Origin: Nitrosospira sp. Nsp11
GTDB lineage: Bacteria; Pseudomonadota; Gammaproteobacteria; Burkholderiales; Nitrosomonadaceae
Assembly (NCBI RefSeq): GCF_900142705.1
Contig: NZ_FRBV01000001.1
Span: 558,001 to 622,000 of the forward strand
Reading direction: 5' to 3'
Length of the DNA stretch: 64,000 nt
The position numbers and the translations under genes are program-made. Within the stretch, counting starts at the first letter, position 1. Each line of letters starts with the position of its first letter. Positions 18,150 to 33,859 of this stretch are shown here, piece by piece. A model generated the notes under the pieces. The model saw only the letters and a list, made by a program, of their open reading frames with translations. It was not told where the DNA came from and ran no database searches.

Positions 18150-18575
18150 ATGAAACATACTTTCATTCTGAAAAATTCAATCCAGTCTTTAATATTTGCC
18201 GGGACCCTTATTTTCGGCGCAGTCGGAGTATCCCATGCACAGCCTGGTATGGCCGCACAAGGTGGAGCCCATTTGCTCGCGCAGGCTGGTTCAGGCGCCG
18301 AGCAGCAGGCTTCCGGCTGGAAAGACCCTGTAACAGGCCGGTCTGCTGCTCCCGAGGATAACACCGGTGCGCTTACCCAGGCTGCGCCGAGCCAAACGGA
18401 TCCCTCGTCAGGCTGGTCATCAGGTGGGCAGACATCGGGCTCATGCAAGCACGCCACTCCTGAGCAGGAAAGTTTTCTCTGTAAGGTTGTACGGATCCTG
18501 TATCGAGCTGAGACGCCACGCGGGCCGAACCGTGACATGGACGAAAACGTCTCGGCTGGCGGTGCTGGAGGTTGA
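18150..18575 (+). CDS. small secreted protein of unknown function, copy 1
   Basis: I do not recognise this 141-residue protein. It starts after AAAGGAGCAT and has a signal peptide ending near GVSHA (residue 30). The mature part is rich in Gly, Ser, Ala and Gln. The last 34 residues are different in character: SFLCKVVRILY, then TPRGPN, then a tail ending SAGGAGG. The following gene has the same tail and a related upstream region, so the two are a duplicated pair. Two Cys (near residues 99 and 111) may form a disulfide in this copy; they are not both kept in the other. The role is unknown; secretion is inferred. Confidence 0.72.
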   Translation: MKHTFILKNSIQSLIFAGTLIFGAVGVSHAQPGMAAQGGAHLLAQAGSGAEQQASGWKDPVTGRSAAPEDNTGALTQAAPSQTDPSSGWSSGGQTSGSCKHATPEQESFLCKVVRILYRAETPRGPNRDMDENVSAGGAGG

Positions 18576-18627
18576 TTTTGCAGTCAGGGATATAATCAGA
18601 CACGTCGGCGAATAAAGGAGAGCAGAC

Positions 18628-19011
18628 ATTAAACATACTTTTTGTGCTGAAAAAAACGCGGTGGTTCGCTTTATATTGTTTGTTGCTATCATGATTTTCC
18701 TTCCAATAGGCCCACTCCAGGCGCAGGCCGGCGGAGAGCCTCCCACCTCCCAAGACGAGAAAGGCAAGGTCATCTTTCAAGATATTCCCCCGTCGGGAAG
18801 CGGAAACTCGACATCCGCGAAGAACGCGCCTGATCAGGCAAGCGCAACAAGCAAGATATGTGAAGAACAGGCAGCCGCAAGTTGGGCTGCGCCTCCGAAG
18901 GAGAGCCTGTTAAGAAAAATTCTAAGGGTTCTCTACGGACCTAATACGCCCCCTGGACCCAATACCGAGGTGGATACGAATATTTCAGCCGGAGGAGCGG
19001 CGGGAGGGTAA
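18628..19011 (+). CDS. small secreted protein of unknown function, copy 2 (possible ATT start)
   Basis: A paralogue of the preceding gene. Its C-terminus, SLLRKILRVLYGPNTPPGPN then DTNISAGGAAGG, matches the neighbour closely. The upstream DNA also aligns, but where copy 1 has ATG-AAA-CAT-ACT-TTT-type codons, this copy has ATT-AAA-CAT-ACT-TTT at 18628, preceded at good distance by AAAGGAG. ATT is a very rare start codon; otherwise translation must begin at GTG 18661, giving 116 residues with hydrophobic segment RFILFVAIMIFLPIGPLQA as signal. I give the outer limit. The alternative is that the gene is poorly expressed or decaying. Confidence 0.62.
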   Translation: MKHTFCAEKNAVVRFILFVAIMIFLPIGPLQAQAGGEPPTSQDEKGKVIFQDIPPSGSGNSTSAKNAPDQASATSKICEEQAAASWAAPPKESLLRKILRVLYGPNTPPGPNTEVDTNISAGGAAGG

Positions 19012-22386: not shown

Positions 22387-23454
22387 ATGAAAATTATCAA
22401 GTCAGGATTTTATTCTCATGCGGCCTTAAAACAGGCATCAGGCCTGGCTGCACGGCTGGCTGTGATATCCGCCACAGTGGTAATAATGACACCTGCGGCC
22501 GACGCAGTGGAGGCGCCGCTAAATTATTTCCTGCACAGTTATGGGCCCGCATCCAGGCCGACAATGTATCTCGGATGGGTGCTGGCCGGGCTATCGGGGC
22601 TGGTATTCCTCGTTATCACGCTACTGCTGCTGGGAGCTTTGCTCCGCAAACGTCCAGCCATGGACCCTCGCACAATTGGGCGCGAAGGCGAAGGGCTTCG
22701 ATGGATATATATCGGAACGGGAATTTCCACCTGCATATTATTCGGCCTCGTTATTTACGCGATGATGGTGCTGAACGCGGTCGCCAAGCCGGCGCAAACC
22801 CCGACCGTTACGCTGACTGTTACGGGGCATGACTGGTGGTGGAAAATCGAATATGACCATGACGATCCTTCGCAACGCTTCATCACTGCTAACGAGCTGC
22901 ATGTTCCTGTAGGCCAACCTGTCCTGATCAAGTTGAAAAGCGCCGATGTTATCCACGCCTTCTGGATACCGAAGCTCGCCGGAAAAACGCAGATGATCCC
23001 GGGACTGACGAATCAGCAATGGATCCAGGCTGATGTGCCCGGTGTATATACCGGGCAATGTGCCCAGTTTTGCGGCGCCGGTCATGCTCACATGGGTTTC
23101 GAGATCGTTGCGGAAAGTGCCGGCGATTTTAAAAAATGGCAGGATGCCCAGCGACAAACCGTTTCGCTCGCGCCGGCGGCGAATGTAATTCCTGGCCACA
23201 AACTGTTCATGGATCGTTGCGCTGGCTGCCACACGGTCCGGGGAACCCATGCTTCCGGCCAGCACGCTCCCGATCTGACCCATTTGAACTCACGGCGTCG
23301 GCTTGCGGGAGGACTACTAACGAATACGCCTGAACATGTGATGAAGTGGGTTGTTAACGCACAACAACTCAAACCGGGATCGCGTATGCCCAGCATGGTG
23401 TTATCGGAATCTGAAAAGTCCGCACTCGCGTTATTTTTGTCGAAACTGGATTAA
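22387..23454 (+). CDS. coxB: cytochrome c oxidase subunit II with fused cytochrome c (caa3-type)
   Basis: Subunit II carries the CuA centre and, here, a C-terminal haem c domain that delivers electrons. Numbered from the ATG at 22387 (a TTG at 22369 is an alternative) it has 355 residues: an N-terminal signal/helix, two membrane helices (about 60-85 and 107-130), aromatic HDWWWKIEY (148-156), CuA ligands His190 and C225-x3-C229-x3-H233-x2-M236 in GQCAQFCGAGHAHM, and haem motif CAGCH (278-282). The residue between the CuA cysteines is Gln227, where mitochondrial and classical bacterial enzymes have Glu, a ligand of the Mg site. Its stop codon lies in the duplicated flank of the following repeat. 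Confidence 0.94.
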   Translation: MKIIKSGFYSHAALKQASGLAARLAVISATVVIMTPAADAVEAPLNYFLHSYGPASRPTMYLGWVLAGLSGLVFLVITLLLLGALLRKRPAMDPRTIGREGEGLRWIYIGTGISTCILFGLVIYAMMVLNAVAKPAQTPTVTLTVTGHDWWWKIEYDHDDPSQRFITANELHVPVGQPVLIKLKSADVIHAFWIPKLAGKTQMIPGLTNQQWIQADVPGVYTGQCAQFCGAGHAHMGFEIVAESAGDFKKWQDAQRQTVSLAPAANVIPGHKLFMDRCAGCHTVRGTHASGQHAPDLTHLNSRRRLAGGLLTNTPEHVMKWVVNAQQLKPGSRMPSMVLSESEKSALALFLSKLD

Positions 23455-23692
23455 ACCTAAATCCAGTAGTTGGACGGGGTGAAGTGTATGGTTTTTGGGG
23501 TGCAGGGCAAGGCGCAACGACGCGGAATGGTCGTTCCATTCCAAGGAGTTGCAACGCAGCCATGTGCCGCAAAAACTGTGCAATTCTTCCAGTAGCGCCC
23601 TCACCCGGAAGGTGAGCGTCAAATAAATTGAAATATTGTTATTAATCATAATGTTGATCTATCAAATGAGCGGTCAACTACCGGATTTAGGT
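23455..23692. mobile_element. 238-bp MITE-like palindromic element between coxB and coxA
   Basis: The ends, ACCTAAATCCAGTAGTTGGAC (from 23455) and GTCAACTACCGGATTTAGGT (to 23692), are imperfect terminal inverted repeats, and TAA flanks both sides (23452-23454 and 23693-23695), consistent with a 3-bp target duplication; the left TAA is the coxB stop. Inside is a long imperfect palindrome centred on GGAATGG-TCGTT-CCATTCC (23524-23542) and a CTCACC/GGTGAG hairpin. It holds no gene. Its right end matches the element at 1265-1397. I infer a non-autonomous mobile repeat lodged in an operon, where its structured RNA may change expression of the downstream genes. Confidence 0.72.
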
Positions 23693-23702
23693 TAAAATAT
23701 TT

Positions 23703-25724
23703 ATGGCTATCTCTGACTTGACCCATAGCCCAGCGGATGTCAGCCCAAGCGACCCTCCTGGCGACGATCGCCTGAGCCGCGTGCCGGACTTTGGCCGTGC
23801 ACCGGTTGGTTCGGCCGCCGAAACGCACCTCGTCCATATCTGGGAAGCGGCCCCAGGCTGGCGCGGCTCGCTCTCCACGGTCGACCATAAGACGATCGGC
23901 CTCCGATATATCGTCACGGCATTTATTTTCCTACTGATTGGCGGCATCGAGGCGCTGATCATGCGCTTGCAGCTCGCTGGACCAAGCCTTACGCTGCTGA
24001 CGCCGGAACAATATAGCCAATTGTTCACGATGCACGGCGTAACGATGATCTTCCTGTATGCCTTGCCGATATTGTCCGGATTCTCCAACTATCTCTGGCC
24101 GCTGCTGCTGGGCTCGCGCGATATGGCATTTCCCCGCTTGAATGCACTCTCGTACTGGATATTTTTATTTGCGGGCATATTCATGTATGCGAGCTTCCCC
24201 ATCGGCCAGGCACCGAATGCCGGCTGGTTCAACTATGTTCCCTTTGCGGGACCCATCTATAACACCGGTCCCAATATCGATGTTTTCGCGCTCGGCATGG
24301 TGCTGCTGGGAATATCGACAACCGTCGGATCGGTCAATTTTGTGGTTACGCTATTCCGGATGCGGGCGCCGGGCATGACAATCAATCGCGTACCCATTCT
24401 GGTCTGGGGCACGCTCACTGCATCCGTAGCCAATCTCCTGGTTATCCCCGCAGTCAGCCTGGCGTTTTTTCTTCTGTGGCTTGACCGTCAGATGGGCACC
24501 TACTTCTTTGACGTGGCCAATGGCGGTAAGCCGCTGCTGTGGCAACATCTATTCTGGATTTTTGGCCACCCATGGGTTTACGCGATAGTGCTTCCCGCCA
24601 TGGGCATTGTTTCGGATGCTTTACCCACGTTTTGCCGCCGCCCCCTGGTGGGTTACGCAGCCATGGCCCTTGCTACGATGGCGACCATGCTGATTGGATT
24701 CGAGGTATGGATTCACCATATGTTCGCTACTGGCTTGCCGACTGTCGCCCTATCCATTTTCGGTGCCGCCAGCATGGTGATTTCAATCCCGAGCTCAGTC
24801 GCCGTGTTTTCGTGGATTGCAACTATCTGGCTTGGAAGGCCGGTGTTCAAGACGCCATTTCTGTTTTTTGCCGGGTTTGTCATTCTGTTTGTAATCGGCG
24901 GCTTATCGGGTGTGATGACGGCAGCCGTATCGCTCGATTGGCAGCTTAACGACACCTACTTCATCGTCGCACACCTGCATTATGTGCTGCTGGGAATCAA
25001 CGTATTTCCGGTCATAGGCGGCATCTATTACTGGTTCCCCAAATTCACGGGACGCATGATGGATGAGAAAATGGGCAAATGGAGCTTTTGGGTCATGTTC
25101 ATTGGTTTCAATGCAGGATTTTTTCCGATGCACATATCGGGTCTACTGGGCATGCCGCGCCGTGTCTACACCTATTCATCGCGGATGGGATGGGATACGG
25201 TCAATATGATCACCTCCATCGGATCTTTCGTATTTGCCATTGGTGTCCTGATTTTTCTCGTCAATGTCGCGATCAGCCTTAAGCGTGGGGCTCGGGCAGG
25301 CGCAAACCCATGGGATGCCGCCACGCTGGAATGGTCCGTACCCTCGCCGCCCCCCGCTTATAACTTTGCCGTTATTCCCGTTGTCGCAAGCCGGCATCCG
25401 CTATGGGAGGATCGCATTGGCGAAAGCGGGAATCGTTCGAGTCTTGAAGAAGGCTACCTTCTGATGGAAGGCCGGGAAACGATTGGCACCTCTCCGATCG
25501 ATGCGGTACCGGAAATCATCCTGAAGATGCCCGATGACTCCTATACGCCCTTCTTTGTCGGGCTGTTCGTTTCACTGGTGTTCGTCGGTATGCTGCTTCA
25601 CTGGTGGAATTTCACCGGGCTGATGATTATATTGACCATTGTCGCGCTTATCGTCTGGATGTGGCCCAGAAAAACGCTTGTTCAACGCTTGCCTGACGCA
25701 CCACAGCGAGAAGCCCATGGTTAA
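23703..25724 (+). CDS. coxA: cytochrome c oxidase subunit I, non-canonical proton-channel residues
   Basis: The catalytic haem-copper subunit reduces oxygen to water. All six metal histidines are present: His111, His289, His338, His339, His424 and His426; the cross-linked Tyr293 and the propionate arginines (GMPRR) are also present, and the D-channel entry Asp140 and Asn147 are kept. However the motif GHPEVY reads GHPWVY (Glu to Trp291), SIPTGIK reads SIPSSVA (Lys to Ala367) and LHDTYY reads LNDTYF (His to Asn416). The gating Glu, the K-channel Lys and one Mg ligand are thus replaced. Of 673 residues, about 50 N-terminal ones are extra-hydrophilic. coxC overlaps its end. Confidence 0.94.
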   Translation: MAISDLTHSPADVSPSDPPGDDRLSRVPDFGRAPVGSAAETHLVHIWEAAPGWRGSLSTVDHKTIGLRYIVTAFIFLLIGGIEALIMRLQLAGPSLTLLTPEQYSQLFTMHGVTMIFLYALPILSGFSNYLWPLLLGSRDMAFPRLNALSYWIFLFAGIFMYASFPIGQAPNAGWFNYVPFAGPIYNTGPNIDVFALGMVLLGISTTVGSVNFVVTLFRMRAPGMTINRVPILVWGTLTASVANLLVIPAVSLAFFLLWLDRQMGTYFFDVANGGKPLLWQHLFWIFGHPWVYAIVLPAMGIVSDALPTFCRRPLVGYAAMALATMATMLIGFEVWIHHMFATGLPTVALSIFGAASMVISIPSSVAVFSWIATIWLGRPVFKTPFLFFAGFVILFVIGGLSGVMTAAVSLDWQLNDTYFIVAHLHYVLLGINVFPVIGGIYYWFPKFTGRMMDEKMGKWSFWVMFIGFNAGFFPMHISGLLGMPRRVYTYSSRMGWDTVNMITSIGSFVFAIGVLIFLVNVAISLKRGARAGANPWDAATLEWSVPSPPPAYNFAVIPVVASRHPLWEDRIGESGNRSSLEEGYLLMEGRETIGTSPIDAVPEIILKMPDDSYTPFFVGLFVSLVFVGMLLHWWNFTGLMIILTIVALIVWMWPRKTLVQRLPDAPQREAHG

Positions 25725-26316
25725 CGCCGATCAATTGCTGGTACAGCCACTACCCGTAGGGAGCAAGGACAAACTATCGGGGGGGTGGTGGGGCGTTCTG
25801 GCGCTGATCGTGACGGAGGGATCCCTATTTGGATATCTGCTGTTTGCTTACTTCTATCTGGCATCTCAAGCCGAGCAGCATTGGCCACCGGCAGGTTTGC
25901 CTGATTTGCTCCTGCCCAGCATAAATACAGCGATTTTGCTTGCGAGCAGTGTCTGCGTTTGGGCAAGCGAACGCTGCATCCGGAAAAAACAAACCCAGTG
26001 GGCCATTGCGGCGATGGCGCTCGCAATCGTGCTGGGCGCTTTTTTCGTCGGAATTCAGCTCAACGAATGGGATAAAAAGACTTATGGCATGAGTTCGGAT
26101 CTGTATGGGTCGCTGTATTTTACGATCACGGGATTTCATTTGCTTCACGTCGTCATCGGATTGGCCATCCTGTCGCTCCTATTGGTATGGATATCGTTCA
26201 GCTACTTTAACGAGAAGCGCCATGTCGCCATCACCATCGGGGGAGTTTATTGGCACTTTGTCGACGTTGTCTGGCTGTTCGTTTTCGCTACCTTGTACCT
26301 ATTTCCTTACCTCTAA
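25717..26316 (+). CDS. coxC: cytochrome c oxidase subunit III
   Basis: Subunit III is a membrane protein without metals that stabilises proton uptake. The ATG at 25717 overlaps the coxA stop by eight bases, behind GCGAGAAG; the longer frame inside coxA is not used. The 199-residue protein has about five membrane helices, ending GGVYWHFVDVVWLFVFATLYL, a hallmark of the family; FHLLHVVIGLAIL is the preceding helix. It is the short five-helix form typical of caa3 and quinol oxidases. Confidence 0.93.
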   Translation: MVNADQLLVQPLPVGSKDKLSGGWWGVLALIVTEGSLFGYLLFAYFYLASQAEQHWPPAGLPDLLLPSINTAILLASSVCVWASERCIRKKQTQWAIAAMALAIVLGAFFVGIQLNEWDKKTYGMSSDLYGSLYFTITGFHLLHVVIGLAILSLLLVWISFSYFNEKRHVAITIGGVYWHFVDVVWLFVFATLYLFPYL

Positions 26317-26323
26317 AATTCAA

Positions 26324-26782
26324 ATGAGCTCTACCGGCAAACAGGACATGGCGAAAGAACATCGTGCTCCTCCTGATAGTTCGGTGAGTACATATAGAAC
26401 ATTGCTGGCACTTTTTGGTGCGCCTACCTCTTGGGTAGGCCAGATGTCTTTAAGCGAACCGCTTGCCGCCTATGCTTGCTATCCACATCAGGTTCCGCTC
26501 CCCGCCCCATTGTGGGCGGACCTGTCGGTAATTCTGGCAATGATCAGCCTGATTTGTCTGGCGGGTGGCTTGCTTTCGGGATACGTTGCGTGGAATCTAT
26601 GGCGACAAGCGAGCCCTCGGCCAGTCGTGACAGGAGCAGGAGAACACGCCTTCGAAGCAGATGGGGGACAGACACGCTTTCTCGCAAGGCTGGGGACAAT
26701 GTCGAGCTTCGTGTTTATCGTCGCAATTTTATTTACCGGGTGCGCTGTTTTATTGGTGCCACCTTGTAGCGCATGGATTTAA
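26324..26782 (+). CDS. small membrane protein of the oxidase operon (subunit IV/CoxP position)
   Basis: A 152-residue membrane protein that I cannot assign to a named family. It starts at the ATG at 26324, eight bases after coxC (an ATG at 26348 is also possible), and its end overlaps the next gene. Three hydrophobic helices are visible: around LADLSVILAMISLICLAGG, the continuing GYVAWNLW region, and FVFIVAILFTGCAVLLV. By position it resembles the extra small membrane gene found after subunit III in some alternative oxidase operons such as coxMNOP of Bradyrhizobium; that comparison rests on gene order only. Confidence 0.75.
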   Translation: MSSTGKQDMAKEHRAPPDSSVSTYRTLLALFGAPTSWVGQMSLSEPLAAYACYPHQVPLPAPLWADLSVILAMISLICLAGGLLSGYVAWNLWRQASPRPVVTGAGEHAFEADGGQTRFLARLGTMSSFVFIVAILFTGCAVLLVPPCSAWI

Positions 26783-28140
26783 CAGGGATGAAGATATCAG
26801 GAAGGGTATTCAGGGATTGGATAAGCCGGGTTTTAGCTGCAGGTCGTTCATGGGTTGCATGGATTGCCCGGGTTGCCGTAGGGGGAATGATTGTCGCAAA
26901 CGCCCAGGCTGCCGATCCCGAAACCATCGCCCTCGGCGAATATCTTGCGAAGGTGGCTGATTGCGCCGGTTGCCACACGGCCGGACCGCATCATCCGCCT
27001 TTTGTGGGCGGCTTACCGATCAATTCACCTTTCGGGGTTATTTATTCAACTAATATCACGCCAGATCCGGCCACCGGCATTGGTCAATACAGTTATGCTG
27101 ATTTTAGCCGCGCCGTTCGCGAAGGCATCGCCAAGGACGGCAGACGCCTCTATCCGGCAATGCCTTATGCCTCGTTCGCGGCGATATCGGATAGCGATAT
27201 ACAGGCGTTATATGCCTACTTCATGAAAGGAGTGAAGCCGGTTCGCCACACGCCACCCCAGACCAGACTTGTTTTTCCTTTCAGCCAGCGCTGGGGCCTG
27301 ATGTTCTGGAGCGCGGCATTTGCCAATCAGAAAACGTACCAGCCGCGCGCCGATCGTGATACGCAGTGGAATCGCGGCGCTTACCTGGTGCAATCATTGG
27401 GCCACTGCGGCGCCTGCCACACGCCTCGCGGCCTGGCTTTCCAGGAAAAAGCATATTCGGAATCATCGCCGGACTACTTGACCGGCTCAGTGATAGATAA
27501 CTGGTTTGCCGGGAACCTGACTGGAACGGATGCATCGGGTCTGGGCAGATGGTCCGAGTCGGAAATTTCCACATTCCTGGAAACAGGCCATAGCGGACAT
27601 AGTGTCGCCTTCGGCAGTATGGTCACCGTTATCGAAAACAGCACCCAGCATTTACGTAAGGCTGATCTGGATGCCATTGCGCGCTATCTAAAATCCCTAC
27701 CGGCGAAGAAGGGAAAGACGTCCTACAAACCACCCGCCATGCAAGGCCAGTTCGTCCTGACCGGAACCGTTGCGAGCAAATTTGAACGTCCCGGCGCGGG
27801 CCTCTACTCAGGGTTTTGCGCCAAATGCCATCGAGATAATGGCACAGGCAAGTCACCGCAAATTCCACGGCTCGGCGGTAGCGCGATGGTTCTCTCCGAA
27901 AACGCATCCTCCCTCGTTCGCCTCATGCTGGAAGGAGGAAAAGCGCCGCTAACGAAAAATGGGCCGAAACCGAAAAAGATGCCGGCTTATGAAAAAAAGT
28001 TTTCTGACCGCGAGATAGCGGACGTCCTTACCTTCGTACGCAATAGCTGGGGGAACGCGGCGCCCGCAGTGACACTGCGCGATGTATCCTTATTGCGAAA
28101 AGCGCTGCGCGATGATCGGCTCCCGCAATCCGCACTGTGA
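26773..28140 (+). CDS. triheme cytochrome c (alcohol-dehydrogenase cytochrome subunit type)
   Basis: The protein carries three haem c motifs, CAGCH (64-68), CGACH (213-217) and CAKCH (350-354), each in its own cytochrome domain of about 130 residues. Such triheme proteins serve as electron-transfer subunits of membrane-bound alcohol or gluconate dehydrogenases. The N-terminus contains a hydrophobic segment ending VANAQA (about 46), an export signal or anchor. The ATG at 26773 overlaps the preceding gene by ten bases; a second ATG lies at 26788. No dehydrogenase flavoprotein or quinoprotein is adjacent, so I infer it feeds electrons to the oxidase encoded upstream. Confidence 0.9.
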   Translation: MDLTGMKISGRVFRDWISRVLAAGRSWVAWIARVAVGGMIVANAQAADPETIALGEYLAKVADCAGCHTAGPHHPPFVGGLPINSPFGVIYSTNITPDPATGIGQYSYADFSRAVREGIAKDGRRLYPAMPYASFAAISDSDIQALYAYFMKGVKPVRHTPPQTRLVFPFSQRWGLMFWSAAFANQKTYQPRADRDTQWNRGAYLVQSLGHCGACHTPRGLAFQEKAYSESSPDYLTGSVIDNWFAGNLTGTDASGLGRWSESEISTFLETGHSGHSVAFGSMVTVIENSTQHLRKADLDAIARYLKSLPAKKGKTSYKPPAMQGQFVLTGTVASKFERPGAGLYSGFCAKCHRDNGTGKSPQIPRLGGSAMVLSENASSLVRLMLEGGKAPLTKNGPKPKKMPAYEKKFSDREIADVLTFVRNSWGNAAPAVTLRDVSLLRKALRDDRLPQSAL

Positions 28141-31435: not shown

Positions 31436-33859
31436 ATGAGCAGTCAAATGGATGATCTTTTCGGTCATGACGGGTTTTACTATGGGCATGACCATCTTTG
31501 GGGGTCTGACGTTTGGCTGCACATTATCTCCAACGCGATTTCTGCTCTGGCATATTTTTCCATTGTTTTTTTGCTAGCTTGTTTCCTAAGACGCCGCCCT
31601 GATTTAGGATTCAAATCTGCGTTTATGATGTTCGGGCTATTTATTATGTTGGGTGGGGTTAGCCATTCAGCAAATATCGTAACGCTTTGGACGCCGACAT
31701 ATTGGCTGGGAAGCGTCATCAAGGTTTTAAGCGCCTTTACCTCACTTGCCACCGCGGTAATGTTATGGCCATTAATAATCAGGGCCCTAGCTCTTCCCAA
31801 GCCGAGCGAGCTGTTGAGGCATGCTTCGGAGATACAAACAGAACTCCGCCGTAATACTGCCGAGGGCAATGCAATAGAAATTGGGCTCCGTCTGAACATT
31901 AAGAACGGCCATGAAATACAAATTGGGCTCCGTCGGAACATTACGGAAGGCAACGAAACACAGATGGGGCTTCGGCGCGATATTACCGAGGGGAACGAAA
32001 TACAGGCAGGGCTCCGCCGAAACATTACGGAAGGCAACGAAACACAGATGGGGCTCCGTCGCGATATTACCGAGGGGGATGAAATACAGGCGGGACTCCG
32101 CCGGAACATTGCGGAAGGTAATGAAATACAGACAGGACTCCGTCGGAAAATTACTGCCGGCCAGTTTGCAGAAAAGGTGCTATTTGAAGAAAAGGAGCTC
32201 TTGCGCATTACATTAAACTGCATTGGGGACGCGGTTATAACAACGGACACTTCCGGCACAGTTACTTATCTAAACCCGGTCGCCGAATGCATGACCGGCT
32301 GGACTTCAGCAGAAGCTAATGGCCTTCCGCTGCGCGATATTTTTCATATCATAGACGCATACACACGTGAACTCGCTCCGAGCCCGGTCGAGTTGGTTCT
32401 TCAGCAAGAGCAGTCTGTGCGTCTGGCAATTAATACGGTCCTGATACAACGCGGCGGCACGACTTATCCTATTGAAGACTCGGCGGCGCCGATACGGGAC
32501 CAAAATGGAAGAATCGTAGGCACAATTCTTGTGTTCCATGACGTAACGGAAGCGAAAGAAATGGCGGCCCAGGTAACTTATCAGGCATCGCATGATGCGT
32601 TGACCGGCCTTCTTAACCGGCGCGAGTTTGAACGACGCGTGGAGCACGCATTGCTGACGGGCAAACAGGACTCTAAGCAGCATACGTTGCTGTATCTCGA
32701 TCTTGATCAGTTCAAGATCGTGAACGATACCTCCGGCCACGTGGCTGGCGATGAATTATTGAGACAACTAACCGGCATACTGCAAGCCAAGCTCCGCAAA
32801 AGCGATACGCTGGCTCGTCTAGGTGGCGATGAGTTTGGCGTGTTGCTGGAATCTTGCCCCACGGAAGCTGCCTTTAGGGTGGCGGAGCTACTGCGAAAAA
32901 CGGTGCGAGAATTTCGTTTTGTTTGGGAAGAGAAGGTGTTCCAGCTCGGTTTAAGTGTCGGACTGGTTACTTTCAGCGACGGCAAAGAGACACTCGGGGA
33001 TGTCCTACGTATGGCTGATGCGGCCTGCTATCTTGCCAAGGACAAGGGCCGCAATCGCGTGCAGATCTATTCACCGGAAGACACAGGACTCGCGCTACGT
33101 CATGGAGAAATGGGATGGGTAGTGCGGATTCAGAAAGCACTGGAAGAGAATCGTTTCGTCCTGTACTCGCAAAAAATATTGGGATTGAATAGTTTAGAGG
33201 ATGGCGATCACTATGAACTACTACTTCGAATGCAAGGCGAGGACGGAACACTAATACCGCCGATGGCATTCATCCCGGCAGCGGAGCGCTACGGCTTGAT
33301 GCCTCAACTCGATCGTTGGGTGGTCACTACCGCTTTTTCGCAATACGAGGGCCGGCATCCGCCGGGTACTTCTGTCGGCACATGCTCTATCAACCTTTCC
33401 GGCGCATCAGTCTGCGATGAAAATTTTTATGAATTCGTAATCGAGCAATTCGCCCTGTATAAGGTTCCGCCTGAGGGGATCTGTTTCGAAATCACGGAAA
33501 CCTCGGCAATTGCAAATCTGACTCAAGCGGTTATTTTGATGGGAAAATTAAAAAAAATTGGCTGCCGGTTTTCCCTTGATGATTTTGGGAGCGGGATGTC
33601 TTCATTTACTTATCTCAAGCGTTTGCCAGTCGATTATTTAAAAATCGACGGCGGGTTCGTAAAGGGCATGGTGGATGATCCCATTGACAAGGCAATGGTC
33701 GAGGCAATCAATTCCATAGGGCATGTCATGCATATCAAAACGATCGCTGAATTTGTGGAGAACAGTGCAATTTTGGATCTGTTACGACGTATGGGCGTGG
33801 ATTATGCCCAGGGATATGGAATCGAAAAGCCGCGTTTGAATTGTCTTTCAGAAACCTAA
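31436..33859 (+). CDS. ethylene-receptor-like membrane domain, PAS, GGDEF and EAL protein (cyclic di-GMP turnover)
   Basis: An 807-residue membrane signalling protein. Residues 20-125 form three helices closely like the plant ethylene receptor ETR1 sensor: VWLHIISNAISALAYFSI, FGLFIMLGGVSHSANIVTLW and TYWLGSVIKVLSAFTSLATA. ETR1 binds Cu(I) through Cys65 and His69; here they correspond to Gly73 and His77, and Asp25 corresponds to Asn33. Residues 132-243 are eight 14-residue repeats. A PAS domain (about 255-370) precedes GGDEF (463-467) with an RKSD inhibitory site (454-457), and an EAL domain with ELLLR (594-598), EITET and DDFGSG (715-720). Both output domains keep key residues, so it may make and degrade cyclic di-GMP. 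The gene stands alone. Confidence 0.92.
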   Translation: MSSQMDDLFGHDGFYYGHDHLWGSDVWLHIISNAISALAYFSIVFLLACFLRRRPDLGFKSAFMMFGLFIMLGGVSHSANIVTLWTPTYWLGSVIKVLSAFTSLATAVMLWPLIIRALALPKPSELLRHASEIQTELRRNTAEGNAIEIGLRLNIKNGHEIQIGLRRNITEGNETQMGLRRDITEGNEIQAGLRRNITEGNETQMGLRRDITEGDEIQAGLRRNIAEGNEIQTGLRRKITAGQFAEKVLFEEKELLRITLNCIGDAVITTDTSGTVTYLNPVAECMTGWTSAEANGLPLRDIFHIIDAYTRELAPSPVELVLQQEQSVRLAINTVLIQRGGTTYPIEDSAAPIRDQNGRIVGTILVFHDVTEAKEMAAQVTYQASHDALTGLLNRREFERRVEHALLTGKQDSKQHTLLYLDLDQFKIVNDTSGHVAGDELLRQLTGILQAKLRKSDTLARLGGDEFGVLLESCPTEAAFRVAELLRKTVREFRFVWEEKVFQLGLSVGLVTFSDGKETLGDVLRMADAACYLAKDKGRNRVQIYSPEDTGLALRHGEMGWVVRIQKALEENRFVLYSQKILGLNSLEDGDHYELLLRMQGEDGTLIPPMAFIPAAERYGLMPQLDRWVVTTAFSQYEGRHPPGTSVGTCSINLSGASVCDENFYEFVIEQFALYKVPPEGICFEITETSAIANLTQAVILMGKLKKIGCRFSLDDFGSGMSSFTYLKRLPVDYLKIDGGFVKGMVDDPIDKAMVEAINSIGHVMHIKTIAEFVENSAILDLLRRMGVDYAQGYGIEKPRLNCLSET
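31829..32164 (+). repeat. eight tandem 42-bp repeats encoding a 14-residue coiled-coil-like linker
   Basis: Eight head-to-tail units, typically EIQAGLRRNITEGN or ETQMGLRRDITEGN, encode residues 132-243 of the GGDEF/EAL protein. Units 3 to 8 are the most alike, with alternating pairs (4 and 6, 5 and 7), suggesting growth by duplication of an 84-bp double unit. Fourteen residues equal two heptads, consistent with a helical signalling linker of variable length. Confidence 0.93.

Follow-up and report, generated by a model that had tools for sequence, protein, structure and literature searches.

Within the A family of heme-copper oxidases, the A1 subfamily is defined by the glutamate of its HPEVY motif (PMC3084760, PMC8361435), and four ionisable channel residues are described as essential: Asp132, Glu286 and Lys362 of subunit I and Glu101 of subunit II (PMC8239185). 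The D-channel is absent from the B and C types (PMC8239185), and losses of the K-channel have been reported in archaeal oxidases of family A (PMC8239418). On the level of gene organisation, COX operon type a-II was described by Degli Esposti in 2014 (PMC4013037) and has been placed since 2019 in A1 as subtype a (PMC6431628); the passages of these two papers which describe it make no mention of proton-channel residues. In this work we describe an oxidase locus of the soil ammonia oxidiser Nitrosospira sp. Nsp11 (GCF_900142705.1), contained in a stretch of 64,000 nucleotides (contig NZ_FRBV01000001.1, positions 558,001 to 622,000; the window), whose coxB and coxA genes encode a heme-copper oxidase of the A family. 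The enzyme belongs to a group, termed W-type below, which of the four essential residues keeps Asp132 and lacks the other three. In A-type oxidases Glu286 and Lys362 are regarded as indispensable, and the gating of pumping by the Glu has long been debated; a widespread clade of this kind, occurring in nature, provides a test already at hand for telling the parts required by chemistry from those required by pumping, and bears on the energy yield of ammonia oxidisers, methanotrophs and soil bacteria.

The coxB gene (22387..23454, forward strand, start codon ATG at 22387) is intact and encodes a subunit II of 355 amino acids with complete CuA ligands (His190, Cys225, Cys229, His233 and Met236) and a C-terminal cytochrome c domain with one CAGCH motif. 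The coxA gene (23703..25724, forward strand), also intact, encodes a subunit I of 673 amino acids with the A-type fold and two C-terminal helices, which lie at residues 615-631 and 635-653 of an AlphaFold model (pLDDT 88.8). The top PDB folds for this model, by Foldseek, are caa3, bo3 and aa3. Against TIGR02891 the protein scores 700.8 bits, above the NCBI equivalog cut-off of 670.75, and annotation would count W-type enzymes as ordinary aa3 or caa3 oxidases.

Residues were numbered by PDB alignment of the window CoxA to a mycobacterial aa3 oxidase and of a canonical relative to the R. sphaeroides (Rs) and P. denitrificans enzymes, and by a MAFFT alignment. Trp291 (codon 24573..24575, forward strand) stands at the site of Rs Glu286, Ala367 (24801..24803, forward) at that of Rs Lys362, and Asn416 (24948..24950, forward) at that of the Mg-site residue Rs His411, while Asp417 (Rs Asp412) beside the latter is kept. 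The D-channel entry Asp140 (24120..24122, forward; Rs Asp132) is retained, as are the cross-link tyrosine Tyr293 (Rs Tyr288), the six metal-binding histidines (columns 111, 289, 338, 339, 424 and 426) and the arginine pair R481/R482. The window motif reads FGHPWVY, with neither the Glu of HPEVY nor the YSHPxVY pattern of A2 enzymes. Out of the K-channel set Lys354, Thr351, Ser291 and Tyr280, the first two are replaced by Ala367 and Ser364, and the others are present as Ser304 and Tyr293. The remaining D-channel residues of P. denitrificans (Asp124, Asn113, Asn131, Asn199, Tyr35, Ser134 and Ser193) are all kept, Ser193 as Thr206. In CoxB the CxExC motif reads CAQFC, with Gln227 (codon 23065..23067, forward, counted on the translation) at the position of a Glu which we take to be Glu254, a Mg ligand in R. 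sphaeroides. A first-pass annotation of the window had reported these four substitutions together with the retained histidines, Tyr293 and Asp140; both genes are intact and the PDB and MAFFT alignments agree, so that the substitutions are real and the retained residues are found in place.

In order to see how far the Trp-bearing form extends, contigs of the GTDB were scanned for FGHPWVY, which gave at least 118 stretches. Ninety-seven of those listed are CoxA genes (the scan loci); the other 21 were dropped, 15 with the motif in other proteins and six without a frame of at least 120 amino acids holding it. Trp being in the search pattern, its invariance in the scan loci is by selection, and since other flanks are missed (two W-type genes read AHPWVY) the counts are lower bounds. 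The scan loci belong to Pseudomonadota (63), Acidobacteriota (15), Gemmatimonadota (13), Actinomycetota (2), Myxococcota (2) and Chloroflexota (1), with one unplaced, and methanotrophs and sphingomonads are included besides the Acidobacteriota. A whole-protein search of 397 other Pseudomonadota genomes, best matches only, found at least five W-type genes, one of them identical in core sequence to scan locus L009. All five carry Trp and Glu83 (see below) and are without the Lys; the next 23 loci from this search carry Glu and Gln instead. Of the 23 genomes from the genus, 11 carry a W-type gene, and the source genome of the window is among them. Three genomes of this genus have CoxA proteins which, along the aligned stretch, match without a difference named records of Nitrosospira multiformis Nl7 and Nl18 and of Nitrosovibrio tenuis. 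The spread of the residue set, which the first-pass annotation could not judge, is thereby answered in part.

The Trp-bearing CoxAs, that of the window included, form a single clade. In a tree of 148 rows (from 163, after exclusion of 12 short and three identical ones), 96 Trp rows lie on one side of a branch with an SH-aLRT of 84, or 95 without L008, which has a long branch. The sister group consists of 30 rows with Glu plus Gln (CoxN-type; SH-aLRT 91), and the support for both jointly is 100. The tree was a quick LG+G4 search with SH-aLRT support only and with the trait columns excluded, and the program warned of long branches meeting between the outer groups. Values of dN/dS for coxA against nine relatives range from 0.04 to 0.09; the window oxidase is therefore under strong purifying selection and not decaying. 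The view of the first-pass annotation, of a coherent, altered oxidase rather than random damage, is thus borne out by the single clade and by these values.

The W alignment has 111 rows, including three duplicates reached by two routes, and 74 W-type CoxBs (71 distinct) could be read, the others being cut off or outside the search pattern. Residue 367 is Ala in 68 rows, Gln in 21, Ser in 8, Gly in 7 and Thr in 6, and Lys in 0 of 110. The first-pass observation goes beyond chance, as Trp also stands at 291 in all five genes found by whole-protein search. The ExxWT motif of subunit II, which holds the Rs Glu101 of the K-channel, is missing from the window CoxB and occurs in 0/74 W-type, 0/8 CoxN-type and 13/13 canonical CoxBs; the alignment at the start of this helix is gapped, and the eight CoxN-type rows include six distinct ones. 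In sequence the K-channel is thus gone at both ends, at Lys362 of subunit I and at the Glu101 motif of subunit II.

The lower D-channel gives the opposite picture. In the W rows the Asp132 site is Asp in 101/104 (Glu in the rest), Asn121 is found in 90/104, Asn139 in 104/104, Asn207 in 106/106, the Tyr33 site in 102/102, Ser142 in 89/105 and Ser200 in 105/105; the Asn140 site is Ala in 102/104. In the sister clade Asn121 is kept in 0/30 and Asn207 is Glu in 30/30. We read this conservation below the Glu, altered in the sister clade, as suggesting selection for proton uptake via the D-channel. Three further window residues are typical of the W rows, Thr207 (97/106), Thr206 (99/106) and Tyr119 (97/103), where the 14 canonical rows have Ile, Ser and Ala, respectively. 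Another acid, Glu334 of the window, was considered as a replacement and rejected as a general solution, as it is found in only 10 of 108 rows. In helix I, Glu83 (codon 23949..23951, forward) is a transmembrane acid specific to the clade, present in 101/102 W rows; in the Cyo rows the column is Asp or Glu (6/6), and each of the 44 CoxN-type and canonical rows has Leu, Met or Ser there.

From these distributions the order of events may be reconstructed. Lys362 and the subunit-II ExxWT, whose absence is shared with the sister clade, were lost first, and the exchange of Glu286 for Trp came later; this exchange and the new Glu83 are the defining changes of the W clade. Gln367 was kept in 21 rows and elsewhere turned into Ala, Ser, Gly or Thr, and the Mg-site residues drifted. 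The sister rows (L179, L191 and L136 among them), with Glu286 and with Glu at the Asn207 site and without Asn121 and Lys362, represent a second and different rewiring of the proton path.

The Mg site had been seen by the first-pass annotation as a paired loss across two subunits, a view which is overstated and finds no support here. The change of the Mg-site His in the window is not special, because canonical relatives are mostly without that His: Gln stands there in 12 of 14 canonical CoxA rows of the same order bearing Glu and Lys, including both copies of G006, a complete Nitrosospira genome. The Gln variant of CoxB is confined to some W lineages. In the 72 W rows in which both CoxA residue 417 and the CoxB site can be read, Asp/Glu is the commonest pair (37), followed by Glu/Gln (20), Asp/Gln (7), Arg/Ala (3), His/Val (2) and three singles. 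The counts made a compensated cross-subunit pair attractive; with two concordant, no discordant and five uninformative independent pairs (sign test p 0.5) they come down to about two independent events, and we leave this pair as suggestive. The clearer pair across the two subunits is that of the K-channel.

With about even confidence we read the enzyme as an oxidase for electrons from periplasmic dehydrogenases, which takes up protons via the D-channel only and pumps weakly or not at all. Electrons would arrive from periplasmic c-type cytochromes, supplied in many members by a PQQ alcohol or methanol dehydrogenase and relayed here perhaps by the neighbouring triheme cytochrome. To judge from the conserved ligands, they would then travel by way of the cytochrome c domain fused to subunit II, CuA and the low-spin heme, and O2 would be reduced at the heme-Cu site. 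Chemical protons would enter at Asp132 and climb the lower D-channel, whose residues are in place and which presumably conducts; they would then pass Trp291 by a water chain to the heme-Cu site, with possible help from Tyr119 and the clade-specific Thr206/Thr207. With the Glu valve missing, the pump-site branch would probably be lost, and each electron would store its own charge and one chemical proton only. The suggestion of the first-pass annotation that the enzyme may pump weakly or not at all is upheld as far as ordinary two-channel pumping goes, which is unlikely because both Glu286 and Lys362 are lost; for pumping itself, weak or absent, and for the passage of protons by Trp291, we infer only that both are probable. 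More tentatively, the clade as a whole may be a D-channel-only, Glu-less and non-pumping branch of the A family serving high-potential electrons from periplasmic dehydrogenases, an extra low-yield outlet which was carried into ammonia- and methane-oxidising bacteria.

The neighbourhoods of the loci (about 8 kb each) were compared with 20 CoxN-type and 20 canonical control loci, from Pseudomonadota only. PQQ dehydrogenases are found at 35/97 listed scan loci, 3/5 W loci of the phylum sample, 1/20 CoxN-type and 0/20 canonical loci (35/97 versus 1/40, Fisher p 1e-5, a guide only, the rows being related); one of them, scanned with NCBIfam, is of the methanol/ethanol family. A MoxJ-like protein is encoded at 16/97 listed scan loci and 0/5 phylum-sample loci versus 0/40 controls.

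Several points weigh against the reading of a D-channel-only dehydrogenase oxidase. No PQQ dehydrogenase is seen near 62 of the 97 listed scan loci. A search of the Nsp11 genome with PF01011 found none, and an adjacent one was therefore rejected as the electron donor of the strain. Genes related to that of the triheme cytochrome occur at 12/97 listed scan loci and 2/5 phylum-sample W loci versus 5/20 CoxN-type and 3/20 canonical loci; being equally common at control loci, it is not specific enough to be the clade's own donor, and it may act as an electron relay in this strain. With no PQQ dehydrogenase match in the genome and triheme relatives as common at the controls, the electron donor in Nsp11 is a guess. 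Conservation of the D-channel could just as well reflect a use in pumping. Canonical enzymes lose activity on mutation at the start and at the end of either channel (PMC8239185), for which reason a D-only route without the Glu needs a path which is still hypothetical. The AlphaFold model is one of the protein without cofactors and waters, and neither biochemical nor expression data for W-type enzymes were found.

A competing account, which we consider unlikely, is that pumping is normal or nearly so, the task of Glu286 being taken over by Thr206/Thr207, Tyr119 of helix II and a water held by Trp291, and that of the K-channel by waters beside Ser357 and Ser364. It would explain the constraint on the entire lower D-channel and why Thr206, Thr207 and Tyr119 are typical of W rows and unlike the canonical ones. 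A2 oxidases, moreover, pump protons. In these enzymes a Tyr-Ser pair substitutes for the Glu (PMC8361435). None of Thr206, Thr207 and Tyr119, however, is acidic or a lysine, both threonines are also seen in part of the Cyo rows, although the Glu is present in these, and the site which in A1 enzymes is the proton branch point is here occupied by a large indole. The distribution of Glu83, shared with the Cyo rows and with neither CoxN-type nor canonical ones, raises in turn the idea of a second electron-entry or regulatory site, at which quinol may bind, electrons being taken from cytochrome c as well; the column is presumably that of the acidic quinol-site residue of CyoB. Three of the six Cyo rows were scanned with NCBIfam, two being above the CyoB cut-off and one below. 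We hold this idea to be quite improbable: the partner Arg of bo3 is missing (column 79 is Ile, Leu, Val, Ala or Met in 102/102 W rows), His is found at column 103 in 1/103, neither CuA nor the cytochrome c domain has been lost, and the identity of the site is our assumption.

Ammonia oxidisers make NO, and as the host is one of them the enzyme might not use O2 alone; its altered proton paths would suit a further oxidant such as NO, and it might act in detoxification or as a low-energy electron sink. The genome also has two clusters related to NO reductases: NorC-, NorB- and NorQ-like genes at L002 (contig C24), which we take for a cNOR-like cluster, and L003 (contig C9), where a SenC/SCO-like gene and one for a membrane protein come after genes for small heme-copper subunits I and II, presumably a cluster resembling sNOR (norSY-senC-orf1). 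Such a role is improbable, as all A-type active-site residues are kept, the cross-link Tyr included, and as the clade has methanotrophs, sphingomonads and Acidobacteriota, often beside alcohol dehydrogenases. Neutral decay of a redundant oxidase, finally, would fit the canonical aa3 copies which this strain very probably has as well (see below); it is made extremely improbable by the low dN/dS in all nine comparisons, by a residue set common to several phyla and by the conserved operon.

The source genome (G000) has 3.2 Mb over 35 contigs, and one A-type CoxA gene was found by genome search. The W-type enzyme was rejected as the sole aa3 oxidase of the strain, since both canonical coxBAC copies most likely lie in assembly gaps: the flanks of the canonical coxBAC genes of G006 end at contig ends of G000, which are base 1 of C11, C18 and C27 and the last base, 6823, of C12. 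As both G006 copies coincide with such ends, the W-type enzyme very probably supplements two canonical aa3 oxidases. When draft genomes of Nitrosospira are surveyed for the presence or absence of oxidases, coxBAC can therefore escape notice in assembly gaps.

Downstream of coxA follow, all on the forward strand, coxC (25717..26316, start codon picked by eye), encoding a short subunit III, ORF4 (26348..26782) and the triheme cytochrome c (26773..28140; CAGCH, CGACH and CAKCH). The PF00510 match of coxC begins at profile position 77, the first 76 positions missing, as a five-helix form would give. ORF4 encodes a small protein, a membrane protein by eye, which gave no match in Pfam; relatives of it follow coxC at 27/97 listed scan loci at 1e-10 and at 0/40 controls. 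The stop of coxB is overlapped by a palindromic interspersed element of 255 nt (23446..23700, without assigned strand) which fills the gap between coxB and coxA and is not part of the conserved operon. Its RNA fold has a z of -7.4, and comparison with Rfam gave no match. Another Nitrosospira has a 91% copy between its canonical coxB and coxA (L169:9182-9432), and there are many more partial matches elsewhere in the Nsp11 genome. Elsewhere in the window, 31436-33859 encodes a protein that by eye is GGDEF-EAL-like, in which a unit of about 14 residues (ITEGNEIQxGLRRN) is repeated in tandem ahead of the sensor part, and 18150-19011 encodes two adjoining small proteins, probably secreted (by eye), with a common C-terminal pattern N-[V/I]-SAGGA.

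Compared with canonical A1 aa3 oxidases (those of R. sphaeroides and P. denitrificans and the coxBAC of Nitrosospira), the window enzyme shares the fold, the metal ligands, Tyr288, the lower D-channel and R481/R482, and differs by the absence of Glu286, Lys362 and the Glu101 motif of subunit II and by the presence of Glu83. With A2 oxidases it shares the lack of a Glu in HPxVY; it has FGHPWVY without their Tyr-Ser pair, and A2 enzymes keep the K-channel. Like B- and C-type oxidases it retains one of the A-type channels, in reversed manner, as these keep a K-type channel and the window enzyme the lower D-channel. Cytochrome bo3 has no CuA, and its quinol site consists of Arg, Asp, His and Gln. 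The acid at column 83, extra C-terminal helices and a short subunit III recall CyoB, whereas the window enzyme has the complete CuA ligands and cytochrome c, and the residues at the positions of the quinol-site Arg and His differ. A Trp-for-Glu, Lys-less A-type clade was not described in the literature searched, subscription papers and supplements being outside reach, among them Degli Esposti et al. 2020, cited for D-channel variants.

The two closest types are the sister clade and operon type a-II. From its sequence type and the literature description we infer that the sister is the CoxMNOP type, or fused COX1-3, in which the K-channel Lys and the subunit-II ExxWT are already lost. It keeps Glu286 (30/30) and the Mg-site His (30/30), has lost Asn121 and has the exchange of Asn207 for Glu in all rows, and its COX3 is doubled, according to the literature, or fused, as seen from long reading frames. 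The window enzyme lies inside the W clade, has Trp291 and a single COX3 gene beside coxA. In Cupriavidus necator, coxMNOPQ, probably of the sister type, is reported to have no effect on fitness under the conditions tested (PMC11540253). Type a-II is described with a COX1 of about 670 amino acids (630-670) with a two-helix, COX4-like C-terminal part, a short COX3 and a frequent PQQ dehydrogenase neighbour; the window has 673 amino acids and the two helices, and this strain differs in having no PQQ dehydrogenase match. The fusion of COX2 with cytochrome c seen in the window is frequent in COX operons (PMC4013037). The W-type architecture matches COX operon type a-II, the identity of the two sets being likely on this likeness, and at the level of residues the W-type is a new variant within this known operon type.

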